Assembly (NCBI RefSeq): GCF_943193205.1 | Contig: NZ_CALPDD010000001.1 | Coordinates: forward strand, 62,001-126,000 | Direction: 5' to 3' | Source: Alistipes muris | GTDB taxonomy: Bacteria; Bacteroidota; Bacteroidia; Bacteroidales; Rikenellaceae | Length of the DNA stretch: 64,000 nucleotides | Part shown: positions 2,807 to 43,531 of the stretch, piece after piece | Layout: every line of letters begins with the position of its first letter | Numbering within the stretch: the first letter of the stretch is position 1 | Notes under the pieces: generated by a model | Databases searched by the model: none | What the model was told of the DNA's origin: nothing | Seen by the model: only the letters and a program-made list of their open reading frames with translations | Position numbers and translations under genes: made by a program

Positions 2807-4030
2807 CTATCCCTCGATGCGGGAATCTTTCAGTCCGAGGAAGTAGAGAATGCCGTCGAGCCCGATGGTCGAAATCGACTGCCGGGCCGTGGCCTTGACC
2901 TTGGGTTTGGCGTGGAACGCAATGCCCAGGCCCGCGAGGTTGAGCATCGGCAGGTCGTTGGCGCCGTCGCCCACGGCCACCGACTGGGCGATGTTGATCT
3001 CCTCGAACTGGCACAGCAGCCGCAGCAGCTCGGCCTTGCGGCGTCCGTCGACCACCTCGCCCGCATAGCGGCCCGTCAGTTTGCCGTCCTCGATTTCCAG
3101 CTCGTTGGCATAGACGTAGTCGAAGCCGTATTTCTGGCGCAGGTAGTTGCCGAAGTAGGTGAAGCCGCCCGAGAGGATGGCCGTCTTGTAGCCCACGCGC
3201 TTGAGGATGGTCATCATGCGTTCCAGCCCCTCGGTAATGGGGAGATTGCGGGCTATTTCGTCCATGACCGAGACGTCCAGCCCTTTCAGCAGGGCTACGC
3301 GCCGCGTGAAGCTCTCGCGGAAGTCGATTTCGCCGCGCATGGCGCTCGCCGTAATGGCCCGCACCTCGTCGCCCACGCCCGCCCGTTCGGCCAGTTCGTC
3401 GATCACCTCGGTTTCGATGAGCGTCGAATCCATGTCGAAACATATCAGACGGCGGCTGCGGCGGTAGATGTCGTCTTTCTGGAACGAGACGTCGAGCCCC
3501 AGTTCCGACAGGTTCATGAAGCGTTCCTGCATGGCGCTGCGACTCTCGTCCGTCAGCGAGCCGCGCACCGAAAGTTCGATGCAGGCCTTGGCCGCGCGGT
3601 CGTCCTCGTGCAGCGGCATGCGGCCCGTCAGACGCTTGATGGCGTCGATGTTGAGCCCGTGTTCGGCCACCACGGCCGTCACTTCGGCTATGTGGCGCGC
3701 CGAGACCGTACGGCCCAGCAGCGTGATGATGTAGCGGTTCTTGCCCTGGCGGCCCACCCAGGCTTCGTAGTCCTCCTCCGAAATCGGGGTGAAGCGTATC
3801 ATCACGCCCAGTTCCGACGCCTTGAACAGCAGTTCTTTCATGATGCCGCCCGACTTGTCGGGGGTGGTCATGATCAGGATGCCCAGGGTCAGCGACTGGT
3901 GGATGTTGGCCTGACCGATGTCGAGGATGCAGGCGTCGTAGCGCGCCAGGATGGCCGTCAGCGACGAAGTCATGCCCGGCTTGTCGGCGCCCGAAATGTT
4001 TATCTGTATGATTTCGATGTCGTTCTGCAT
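2807..4030 (-). CDS. serB: Phosphoserine phosphatase with N-terminal ACT domains
   Basis: Catalyses the last step of serine biosynthesis, hydrolysis of phosphoserine. Residues 1-180 form two ACT-like regulatory domains (first near 5-85, second near 100-175). The HAD-type phosphatase follows: nucleophile motif DMDST at 199-203, SGG of motif II at 287-289, and GDGAND of motif IV at 354-359. The length (407 residues) fits the long ACT-containing SerB type. An upstream start at 4060 is open, but it would lie inside the -7 box at 4058-4065, so the ATG at 4030 (MQNDIEI) is chosen. The pathway partners serC and serA are about 50 kb away in this window. Confidence 0.95.
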   Translation of the reverse strand: MQNDIEIIQINISGADKPGMTSSLTAILARYDACILDIGQANIHQSLTLGILIMTTPDKSGGIMKELLFKASELGVMIRFTPISEEDYEAWVGRQGKNRYIITLLGRTVSARHIAEVTAVVAEHGLNIDAIKRLTGRMPLHEDDRAAKACIELSVRGSLTDESRSAMQERFMNLSELGLDVSFQKDDIYRRSRRLICFDMDSTLIETEVIDELAERAGVGDEVRAITASAMRGEIDFRESFTRRVALLKGLDVSVMDEIARNLPITEGLERMMTILKRVGYKTAILSGGFTYFGNYLRQKYGFDYVYANELEIEDGKLTGRYAGEVVDGRRKAELLRLLCQFEEINIAQSVAVGDGANDLPMLNLAGLGIAFHAKPKVKATARQSISTIGLDGILYFLGLKDSRIEG

Positions 4031-5586: not shown

Positions 5587-5644
5587 TTCTGCGGACGCGA
5601 CGGATTATTTTGTAAATATTTTTAATAAATAGCGATTTTTGCAC

Positions 5645-5805
5645 TATCTTTGTCTGATGTCAGCGGTGCCTCGGCAAAAATCAAACAAGTTTGTTTTTGC
5701 TTTCGGCCCGCACTTTACCGAAGCTGCGCTCCGGTTTAGATAGGCGGCGCCTCAGCAGTCCTCAAATAAATTTGGTACTGCTTTCGGCTTGCACTATCTT
5801 TGTCC
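5645..5805 (+). repeat. Tandem hairpin repeat carrying a Bacteroidetes promoter, upstream of mgsA
   Basis: This fills most of the 333-bp gap before mgsA. Two diverged copies lie in direct orientation, at 5665-5719 and 5746-5800 (offset 81 bp, about 38 of 55 positions equal). Each contains a CCTCGGC/CCTCAGC start, an A-rich/T-rich inverted arm, then CTTTCGG and GCACT. In the second copy the arm gives TTTG at 5771-5774, then 20 bp, then TATCTTTG at 5795-5802, which is a complete promoter for mgsA. The first copy has the same TTTG but a ruined -7 (TTTACCGA). A further TATCTTTG at 5645-5652, also preceded by GCAC, looks like the tail of a third copy. The same kind of element occurs at 43369-43492. 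Confidence 0.7.
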
Positions 5806-41247: not shown

Positions 41248-43317
41248 TTAGTTGTTGGTCTCTTCGCCGCCCAGTTGGCTCAGCGGGATGGCATAGAGGC
41301 ACAGCCCGCCCACACGGTCGATGATGAAAAGCGTGTTGCGGCGGATCAGACACTTGGCCGGGTTGTTCAGCGTGATGTCGCCGATGGTCGTGTAGTCCTT
41401 GATGACCTTTCCGGTTTCGGGGTCCACTTCGCAGAATTTCTGCTCCGTCTGCTTCCCGTCGAACGAGACGAACAGACGGCCGTCGGAGCTCCATGCCGCA
41501 CCCGTCGGGCTGTAGTCGAAGGCCAGTTCCTTGCCCGCGGTCAGTTTGCAGGCCATCATGTGTTCGGGGTTCATCCGAACCAGCCTTTTCGCATAGTAGT
41601 CGACTGCGTAGACGTTGCCTGCGTAGTCGGCGGTCATGGTGTTGCTGCTGTGCGCTCCCAGGTTGTCGCTCGACGCTATGGCGCCGTGGGCAAGGTCGTG
41701 TTCCGGGAAAGCCCGCACAATGCCCCGGTATGCGTAGAGCGTGCCGTTGGTTGCGGCCAGGCCTACGGCGTCGAATCCCAGCCCCAGCGTGGCGGTGCAT
41801 TCGTAGGTTTCGGCGTCGAATATGAAAAGCGTGTTGTGGCTTCCCGCCAGGTAAATTTTGTCGTGCGTGCGGATGATGTCGGCCGGCGTTCCGATGGTCT
41901 GTTCGTTGCCGTTCGGAAGCGTCCATTTGGTGAACTGCTTCTCGTGTACGGGTTTTCCCGTCGAGAGGTCGTAGACGTCCCACGTGAAGTTGGCGGCACG
42001 GATGTCGTTCGTCACGTACATCTTGTCGCCGTATACATAGACGCTGCGCGGCATGTAGTTCCGTTCTCCTACGCCTGCGTCGTTGTAGTCAAGTCTGAAC
42101 GAGAGTGCGGGTGCGTCCTCCGTCTCGCCCCAGTCCGTATCCAGGAAGTCGTTGCCGCGGGCCAGACCGCCGTCCATTTCGTCAAGTTCGGGGTCTTCGA
42201 TTACGTATTTCGACGGCCGGTAGTATCCGCCGCCGGGCAGATAGGCGGTCTTGGAGCGGCGGCTGTGCAGGAAGCGGCGCGAGTAGACGGGCAGTTTCTT
42301 GGCCAGCGCCAGTTCTTCGTACACCTTGCCGCACAGCGACGTCCAGCCCGGCCCCGTTTGTTCGTAGGTCATGTTGCCTTCATGGCCGTAGCCCAGGCAG
42401 TGGGCGTATTCGTGGAACATCGTCTCCGTGATGCTCGAATCGTCCGGATATTGCTCGAAATAGACCGATTCGTGCATGCCGAACGTCTCGCCGCCGCCAA
42501 GCCCCATCACTCCGGTGGTGTAGCCGAAGACCAGGCCCCGGTGGCCGATTGCTTGTTTGAGTACGGTCTCTTTGTTGACAAGGTTTTTGTCGTTGTTCGA
42601 GTGAAGCGGGCCCCAGGCGTTGAGTTCGGCGGCGAATTCAGGGCTGGAGTACATGTAGGTCATGTTCAGCGCCATCGCCACGCCTTCGCGGGCATGGCAC
42701 GCGTGCAGCGGATAGGCCCAGCTGGTCTGGTTGGGGTTGTAGCGGCCGAAGCGGATGTGCCAGTGGCAGTTGATTGCCTGAAGCGTCTTCCAGTAGGGGG
42801 CGTCGCATTCGATTTCCAGCGCGATGTTCTCTTTCGAGAGGTGCGGATTGGCCATGATTTGAATCAGTTTGCCGCTCCGCGTCGTCGCCGTTATGTCTTC
42901 CGTCGCAAAGGGCAGCTGCATCTGGAACAGGTGGAACGGCATGACTTTCTCGAATACGAACAGCTTGAACGCTTCGTCGTATCCTTCCATCGTGGCCCAA
43001 ATTGTCACGTTCGGCAGCGCCCGCGGGCTGTAAAATTTCAGTTGGAATTGCAGATCGTCGTCGACGGTCACTTGGAGCGGTTGGTCGGTGTAGAACCAGC
43101 GTTCGCTCGTGTTGAAGAATACTTCCGACGGTTCATCGTCGTTCAGCATGTAGTAGGTGTTCAGATTGTTGTAGTCGGCCGTCGACAGGCGGATCGGAAG
43201 TCCGTCGGGGAATTGTTCCGTCGGGTCGCTTCCGATGGTCTCAGTCGTACATCCGTACAGCAGTAACAGACTGACAATCAGCCCCCCCCCGAGGTTTAGG
43301 GCGAAAAATTTCTTCAT
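41248..43317 (-). CDS. Metzincin-type zinc protease lipoprotein with C-terminal beta-propeller
   Basis: A 689-residue predicted lipoprotein: signal peptide with lipobox LLYG before Cys23. Residues 300-312 read 'MFHEYAHCLGYGH', which is the full metzincin motif HExxHxxGxxH (His302, Glu303, His306, His312). A 'GNMTY' turn follows. Residues 1-290 hold an Ig-like or jelly-roll part, and about 420-689 form a propeller of repeated 'KMYVTND'/'TLFIFDA' blades. No peptidase family was assigned; a surface protease acting on host or dietary protein is plausible. The signal peptide is encoded by a G9 tract (C9 at 43282-43290), and a related remnant lies at 15691-15775. The ATG at 43317 follows the repeat-borne promoter. 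Confidence 0.75.
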   Translation of the reverse strand: MKKFFALNLGGGLIVSLLLLYGCTTETIGSDPTEQFPDGLPIRLSTADYNNLNTYYMLNDDEPSEVFFNTSERWFYTDQPLQVTVDDDLQFQLKFYSPRALPNVTIWATMEGYDEAFKLFVFEKVMPFHLFQMQLPFATEDITATTRSGKLIQIMANPHLSKENIALEIECDAPYWKTLQAINCHWHIRFGRYNPNQTSWAYPLHACHAREGVAMALNMTYMYSSPEFAAELNAWGPLHSNNDKNLVNKETVLKQAIGHRGLVFGYTTGVMGLGGGETFGMHESVYFEQYPDDSSITETMFHEYAHCLGYGHEGNMTYEQTGPGWTSLCGKVYEELALAKKLPVYSRRFLHSRRSKTAYLPGGGYYRPSKYVIEDPELDEMDGGLARGNDFLDTDWGETEDAPALSFRLDYNDAGVGERNYMPRSVYVYGDKMYVTNDIRAANFTWDVYDLSTGKPVHEKQFTKWTLPNGNEQTIGTPADIIRTHDKIYLAGSHNTLFIFDAETYECTATLGLGFDAVGLAATNGTLYAYRGIVRAFPEHDLAHGAIASSDNLGAHSSNTMTADYAGNVYAVDYYAKRLVRMNPEHMMACKLTAGKELAFDYSPTGAAWSSDGRLFVSFDGKQTEQKFCEVDPETGKVIKDYTTIGDITLNNPAKCLIRRNTLFIIDRVGGLCLYAIPLSQLGGEETNN
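43282..43290 (-). repeat. G9 homopolymer in the metzincin lipoprotein signal peptide
   Basis: Nine consecutive G (minus strand) encode Gly10-Gly11-Gly12 of the signal peptide. A change of one base would shift the frame, so the tract could act as an on/off switch. Confidence 0.7.
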
Positions 43318-43368
43318 CGTTCTTGTTGTTTTCGATTGTTCAAAAAACGGTTTTCGGTCAAAACGCCG

Positions 43369-43492
43369 CAAAGATACGAATAAGCGAGGGCAAAAGCAAG
43401 CTCGCTTGCTTTTTGCCGAGCGTGAGTATCTTCGGCACAGCCAAAATACGAATAAGCCGAACACAAAAGCAAGCGAGCTTGCTTTTGCCGAG
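43369..43492 (-). repeat. Tandem hairpin repeat with promoter, upstream of the metzincin lipoprotein
   Basis: Two copies in the same orientation, at 43369-43420 and 43441-43492 (offset 72 bp). On the minus strand each has CTCGGC or GCTCGGC, a near-perfect palindrome (AAAGCAAGCGAGCTTGCTTT or the equivalent with CTCG), then CTTATTCG and the -7 box. The downstream copy has TATCTTTG (43369-43376) with CTTG 20 bp before it, a good promoter for the lipoprotein gene. The upstream copy has a decayed TATTTTGG. The arrangement (intact proximal copy, degraded distal copy) repeats what is seen at 5665-5805. Confidence 0.7.
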
Positions 43493-43531
43493 CCCCCCGC
43501 TGGGTACCTCCTCCCGATAGCCTATACAATT

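Follow-up and report, generated by a model that had tools for sequence, protein, structure and literature searches.

Two tandem arrays of short hairpin units lie in the window, by which we mean the whole 64,000-nucleotide stretch of Alistipes muris DNA that was analysed. One array (5653-5802, plus strand) consists of two units upstream of a gene that an earlier note on this DNA called mgsA, and the other (~43496-43369, minus strand) of two units 5' of a gene that the same note took to encode a metzincin lipoprotein. The note had described a pair of copies at each locus and both pairs are present, three of the four copies being found by a covariance model that was built on units of other genomes, with none from the window. 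Its statement that the gene-proximal copies keep an intact -33 and -7 while the distal copies lack the box is borne out at both loci. The hairpins it outlined are also there, but the natural unit is larger, starting directly after one TATCTTTG and taking in all of the following one; and while its two copies at mgsA stand, it had overlooked an older box, a third one, that reads GCACTATCTTTG (5641-5652) and abuts the first copy on its 5' side. The features are these:

5600-5652, plus strand: putative ancestral mgsA promoter, the proposed insertion target; a near-identical bare promoter lies directly 5' of mgsA in five relatives
5645-5652, plus strand: ancestral -7 box TATCTTTG, now 150 bp further upstream
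5653-5717, plus strand: distal mgsA unit, with palindrome CTCGGCAAAAATCAAACAAGTTTGTTTTTGCTTTCGG and a 3' box decayed to GCACTTTA
5718-5802, plus strand: proximal mgsA unit, with outer stem AGATAGGC..GCACTATCT, inner stem GCC/GGC, palindrome CAGTCCTCAAATAAATTTGGTACTG and the putative promoter at its end
5771-5774, plus strand: -33 element TTTG, in the right arm of the palindrome, with a 20-nt spacer to the -7 box
5795-5802, plus strand: delivered -7 box TATCTTTG, which fits the consensus TAnnTTTG (PMC7366714)
5869-6342, plus strand: downstream gene (mgsA in the earlier note), an ORF of 157 aa with orthologs in relatives at up to 95% identity
43369-43445, minus strand: proximal unit of the second array, with hairpin GCCGAAGATAC, palindrome CGGCAAAAAGCAAGCGAGCTTGCTTTTG and a right arm of the TTATTCG type
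43400-43369, minus strand: putative promoter of that unit, -33 CTTG (43400-43397), 20 nt, -7 box TATCTTTG (43376-43369)
43437-43496, minus strand: distal, decayed unit of the second array, with box GTATTTTGG and ssDNA fold z -3.3
41248-43318, minus strand: gene 3' of the second array (the metzincin lipoprotein of the earlier note), likely start ATG at 43318 within an open frame of 41248-43464

The covariance model matched the proximal mgsA unit at 5738-5802 on the plus strand (66.4 bits, E 2.9e-16; fold z -3.0), the distal mgsA unit at 5662-5717 on the same strand (26 bits, E 7e-5; ssDNA fold z -3.3) and the proximal unit of the second array at 43431-43369 on the minus strand (29 bits, E 1e-5), the last being a pattern match as well; the distal unit at 43437-43496 fell below the model's threshold and was recognised by eye and by its fold. 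The lost boxes of the distal copies read GCACTTTACCG at the mgsA locus and GTATTTTGG at the second locus. The outer stem, AGATAGG paired with CACTATCT, is part of the unit, and the -7 box forms one strand of that stem. No Rfam family was found in the window or at the units.

The unit as a whole is short (65-85 nt) and non-coding, occurs in many dispersed copies and forms one imperfect hairpin, AGATAGG..CTCGG, a variable palindrome, then CTCG.CTT..CACTATCTTTG. Read 5' to 3', TATCTTT(G) of the host or of the previous unit is followed by a short variable loop, AGATAGG(C/A)nGC(G/C/T)CTCGG, the variable palindrome HP1, CTCG(C/G/A)CTT(G/T)CACTATCTTTG and the gene. In an alignment of 79 distinct units from other genomes the invariant foot was AGA(T/C)AGG / CTATCTTTG, and the 14 outer pairs were 95.6% paired with 95 double-change cells, giving a covariation score of 0.222 against 0.054 for shuffled alignments (0/500) and at most 0.052 for controls with slid partners. 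Among these 79 units pair 8-80 was C-G in 46 and A-T in 30, pair 13-76 was G-C in 45, C-G in 26 and T-A in 4, and pair 19-69 was C-G in 40, A-T in 15, G-C in 10 and T-A in 2; since the variable pairs combine in many ways, they do not represent a single linked haplotype. The window's own genome (G000; we give genomes G numbers and loci L numbers) also holds a second type, the TTATTCGTATCTTTG type, in which GATAC pairs with GTATC. Single-stranded DNA folding beat that of shuffled sequences in seven of the eight units tried, the exception being L110. G.U pairs made up 2% of the HP1 stems, as against 14% in shuffled sequences, so that a DNA hairpin fits better than an RNA one, although a small number of founding subfamilies, rather than a constraint on DNA, could also be the reason. 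At the palindrome position of some units there is a second repeat, CCCGGCTAAGAGCCGGG(T/A)TTTATGAACCGA.., that recurs across loci and species (L002, at ~82.8 kb of contig C2 of G000, and L013, L217, L280 and L286), possibly as another insert sharing the same frame.

Searches with simple patterns gave 8 matches vs 0 and 31 vs 0 in the window's own genome against the reversed control, so the pattern is not due to chance. With the covariance model (E <= 0.001) we counted 55 copies in this 1.95-Mb genome. Some congeners are rich in copies by the same model (G452 with 74, G404 with 47, G462 with 44, G440 with 39 and G399 with 34) and others poor (G415 with 3, G422 with 2, G433 with 1 and G411 with 0). 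Other families of the Bacteroidales gave 86 (G272), 68 (G292), 53 (G237) and 49 (G021) copies, and none in G001 and G193. Under stricter filters, which still return 35 copies in G000, none of 117 genomes of Bacteroidota outside the Bacteroidales had a match. A scan of 85,000 species yielded at least 120 loci, and among the 80 matches listed nearly all were labelled as Bacteroidales or its families, one being labelled merely 'uncultured bacterium'. The spread is thus patchy and restricted to the order, and preferred variants differ from genome to genome, which suggests amplification within genomes. For the palindrome subtype CAAATAAATTTGGCATT, G000 and genomes of Muribaculaceae or Bacteroidaceae (L109, L117, L130, L175) have almost the same sequence, a likeness that suggests either transfer between families or strong constraint. 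The exact motif was absent from viral contigs; sequences resembling a unit were seen in MT838739.1 and six similar metagenomic fragments labelled Bacteriophage sp., and in the Phocaeicola plasmid OY726013.1, all of which may reflect either true transfer or chromosomal DNA under a wrong label. Among 120 loci, each covered over up to 8 kb, there was no longer, autonomous version bearing cargo, and the unpaired left arms in these loci belong to decayed or variant units.

The comparison of orthologous intergenic regions that the earlier note had proposed showed that copy number differs among relatives and that there are precise empty sites at four loci (mgsA, L031, L033 and L015). In general the relatives have ...TATCTTTG-gene where G000 has ...TATCTTTG, one or more units ending in TATCTTTG, and then the gene; in one example, bare gatatgttttcTATCTTTGtatt compares with gatatgttttcTATCTTTG, 73 bp ending in TATCTTTG, and tatt. 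At mgsA the bare state is found in G399 (L039; protein 95% identical), G401 (L044), G404, G452 and G462, where the promoter ...TTTT(G)CA(C/T)TATCTTTG or a near variant lies directly before the mgsA leader, while in G000 that box survives at 5641-5652 and a further 150 bp, ending in a second GCACTATCTTTG, come after it. At L031 G000 has gatatgttttcTATCTTTG, 73 bp ending in TATCTTTG, and tattaagtagga, as against gatatgttttcTATCTTTGtattcggtagga in G399; at L033 it has gaattgtttttccTATCTTTG, two units and tgcgctattaggct, as against gaattgtttttccTATCTTTGtacgctattaggct in G399, with the bare state also in G404 and G452. L015 is bare in G399, G543, G452 and G401. That several relatives have the bare state in common suggests gain in the G000 lineage, and we infer from these alignments that the direction was insertion and not deletion. 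The same box bears different palindrome types in different species (L003, L035), which points to repeated turnover. The 8-bp TATCTTTG on both sides of a unit may represent the duplication of an invariable target site instead of an element end. Upstream boxes reading TACCTTTG were considered as a case against such a duplication and rejected, as relatives at L015 show an ancestral TATCTTTG that mutated later.

Within the arrays of G000, 13 of the 17 neighbouring pairs were at most 75% identical, and most units had a closer match at another locus. Since neighbours belong mostly to different subfamilies, the arrays appear to derive mostly from separate insertions at a rebuilt box. Local duplication also contributes to some arrays, with near-identical neighbours in L005 and L022 and a pair in L011 that also looks locally duplicated. 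Internal boxes of arrays are often without the motif, with a near-random eighth base (G 37, A 38, others 18). At several of them (L114, L140, L170, L189 and others) TATCTTTG has repeatedly become TACTTTG or ACTTTG beside a short GC-rich hairpin, as if the putative internal promoters of arrays were regularly switched off.

The sigma-ABfr promoter of Bacteroidetes has TTTG at -33 and TAnnTTTG at -7 (PMC7366714), and the 3' end of the element matches this consensus with a spacer of ~20 nt; the difference is that here the predicted promoter sits within a mobile folded unit. Among 128 units of other Bacteroidales, TTTG was found 19-20 nt 5' of TATCTTTG in 85, the variability of the palindrome notwithstanding, and a T at -23 was conserved in 94%. 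A crude longest-frame rule put at least 88 of 103 downstream genes on the strand of the array, most of the remaining 15 being near ties with antisense frames, and the first in-frame ATG lay at a median of 25 nt 3' of the box; upstream neighbours had no orientation bias (60 vs 50). The box at 5795-5802 is probably the current mgsA promoter. A varied set of genes follows the units (adenylosuccinate synthetase, IMP dehydrogenase, GidA/MnmG, Tgt, PdxJ, EPSP synthase, GTPases and others), and a shared regulon was rejected, as the downstream genes are unrelated. At L020 and L030 of G000, units stand 5' of tRNA-Arg-like and tRNA-Leu-like sequences. At L108, from a Barnesiella relative, two units lie directly upstream of a gene for a XerC/D-type tyrosine recombinase (3069-3995, minus strand; PF02899 + PF00589).

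Taken together, we consider it very probable from these comparisons that the unit belongs to the non-autonomous miniature mobile elements, that it homes to sigma-ABfr promoters and that it rebuilds both a putative promoter and its target. The earlier note's suggestion of a family of small promoter-delivering elements is therefore supported, at ~55 genomic places and not just two. A unit of ~65-85 nt with a short variable left loop would enter directly 3' of a host -7 box, the junction falling 3' of TATCTTTG or among the final bases of that box, and the orientation always being that of the promoter. Because the element's own 3' end would be a -33/-7 promoter ending in TATCTTTG, the gene would again have a promoter as far from the start codon as before, and the displaced box would come to lie further upstream and then decay. 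Every insertion would rebuild the target, so that more units could enter and head-to-tail mosaic arrays would result. The moving form would most likely be folded single-stranded DNA worked on by a putative recombinase or nuclease, which would explain why the unit is conserved as one imperfect hairpin with the -7 box as part of it. With a regenerated promoter and target it would make sense that the orientation is fixed, that arrays grow in tandem, that displaced boxes decay and that units are tolerated before important genes; the promoter activity, the single-stranded intermediate and the enzyme are the parts of this explanation that we infer.

We weighed four other explanations. The unit might be an attC-like site, in which a tyrosine recombinase exchanges the hairpin, in its folded form, with a -7 box in duplex DNA, much as integron integrases act on attC and attI; the layout matches (an outer stem with a bulged base, internal loops, a variable terminal hairpin and head-to-tail arrays) and tyrosine recombinase domains occurred in 27 of 27 genomes tested, but copy-poor genomes have such recombinases too, the integron integrase model TIGR02249 scored above cut-off in none of the 27, the crossover sequence is not GTTRRRY and cassettes are absent, and we regard this origin as unlikely, though deserving of attention. 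It seems improbable that replication slippage, gene conversion or microhomology-mediated template switching between TATCTTTG boxes produced the arrays with no dedicated mobility. The flanking 8-bp identity and the near-identical neighbours in L005 and L022 would fit, but slippage could not produce the first unit at a bare promoter, the register is constant over dozens of insertions per genome with just 8 bp of homology, adjoining units are usually of different subfamilies and covariation over the whole hairpin needs a reason; as the sole origin, slippage is contradicted by the mosaic arrays. REP/REPIN-like repeats moved by RAYT or another Y1 (IS200/IS605) transposase would likewise give many intergenic, strand-oriented hairpins inserted 3' of a short target, AAGATA is a possible guide complementary to that target, and the 'atypical' flanking structures reported for RAYT subclass 2.6 of Bacteroidetes (PMC6006769) count in favour. 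However, Y1_Tnp (PF01797) was absent from 20 of 25 copy-rich genomes, G000 among them, no unit was found within ~1.5 kb on each side of ten Y1 loci, and the GTAG or CGTC tetranucleotide at the foot of REP hairpins (PMC3733652) is missing from the 79-unit alignment, which makes this route highly improbable. Finally, an immobile operator or structured leader conserved by regulatory selection at each gene, the latter being the earlier note's alternative of a leader fixed with the promoter, is scarcely credible: although the palindrome overlaps the -33 element and co-orientation with the gene is strict, the idea is contradicted by the precise empty sites, the copy number is patchy among congeners, the palindrome sequence varies, the downstream genes are unrelated housekeeping and tRNA genes, G.U pairs are few, and the promoter lies at the unit's 3' end, so that the hairpin would be absent from the transcript made from it.

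If the reading as a promoter-homing element is correct, a promoter core serves as the insertion site of a mobile element with self-repairing insertion, which would account for positions before purA, guaB, mnmG and tRNA genes. Many gene promoters in copy-rich species would then be of mobile origin, insertion could drive promoter turnover among related gut bacteria, and an undescribed recombination enzyme would work on folded DNA; the units would also give Bacteroidales genetics a natural set of promoters ready for use. More tentatively, and with doubts slightly outweighing our confidence, we propose that they represent a novel class of mobile DNA, one that attaches at the core promoter box of its host and forms that box anew at its own end, that would move as a folded single strand by means of an undescribed enzyme, and that would have spread through the Bacteroidales in the role of working promoter for essential genes. 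We found no earlier description of the element in the open-access literature; one may have been reported elsewhere.

Among known systems, BrickBuilt, a MITE of Porphyromonas gingivalis (PMC4596501), is likewise a Bacteroidales miniature element with repeats, and it has promoter activity, but the likeness goes no further than the concept of a small repeat that bears a promoter: BrickBuilt is a 23-bp minisatellite present at 19 copies in a single species, its promoters are bidirectional, its ends are inverted repeats, and targeting of the -7 box is not reported for it. REP/REPIN sequences with RAYT are similarly short palindromic intergenic repeats of many copies, patchy and often clustered, with a presumed ssDNA hairpin substrate, whereas the unit described here has no GTAG/CGTC foot, occurs in genomes mostly without Y1 transposase, targets the -7 promoter box, carries a putative promoter and is arranged head-to-tail only. 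Integron attC sites share the imperfect hairpin with a bulge, internal loops and a variable terminal stem, and the head-to-tail arrangement, but the unit has a different core sequence, comes without a detected integron integrase or cassette genes, and is dispersed over many promoters. While it fails the tested defining features of both systems, the element works like a REP/REPIN and folds like an attC site.
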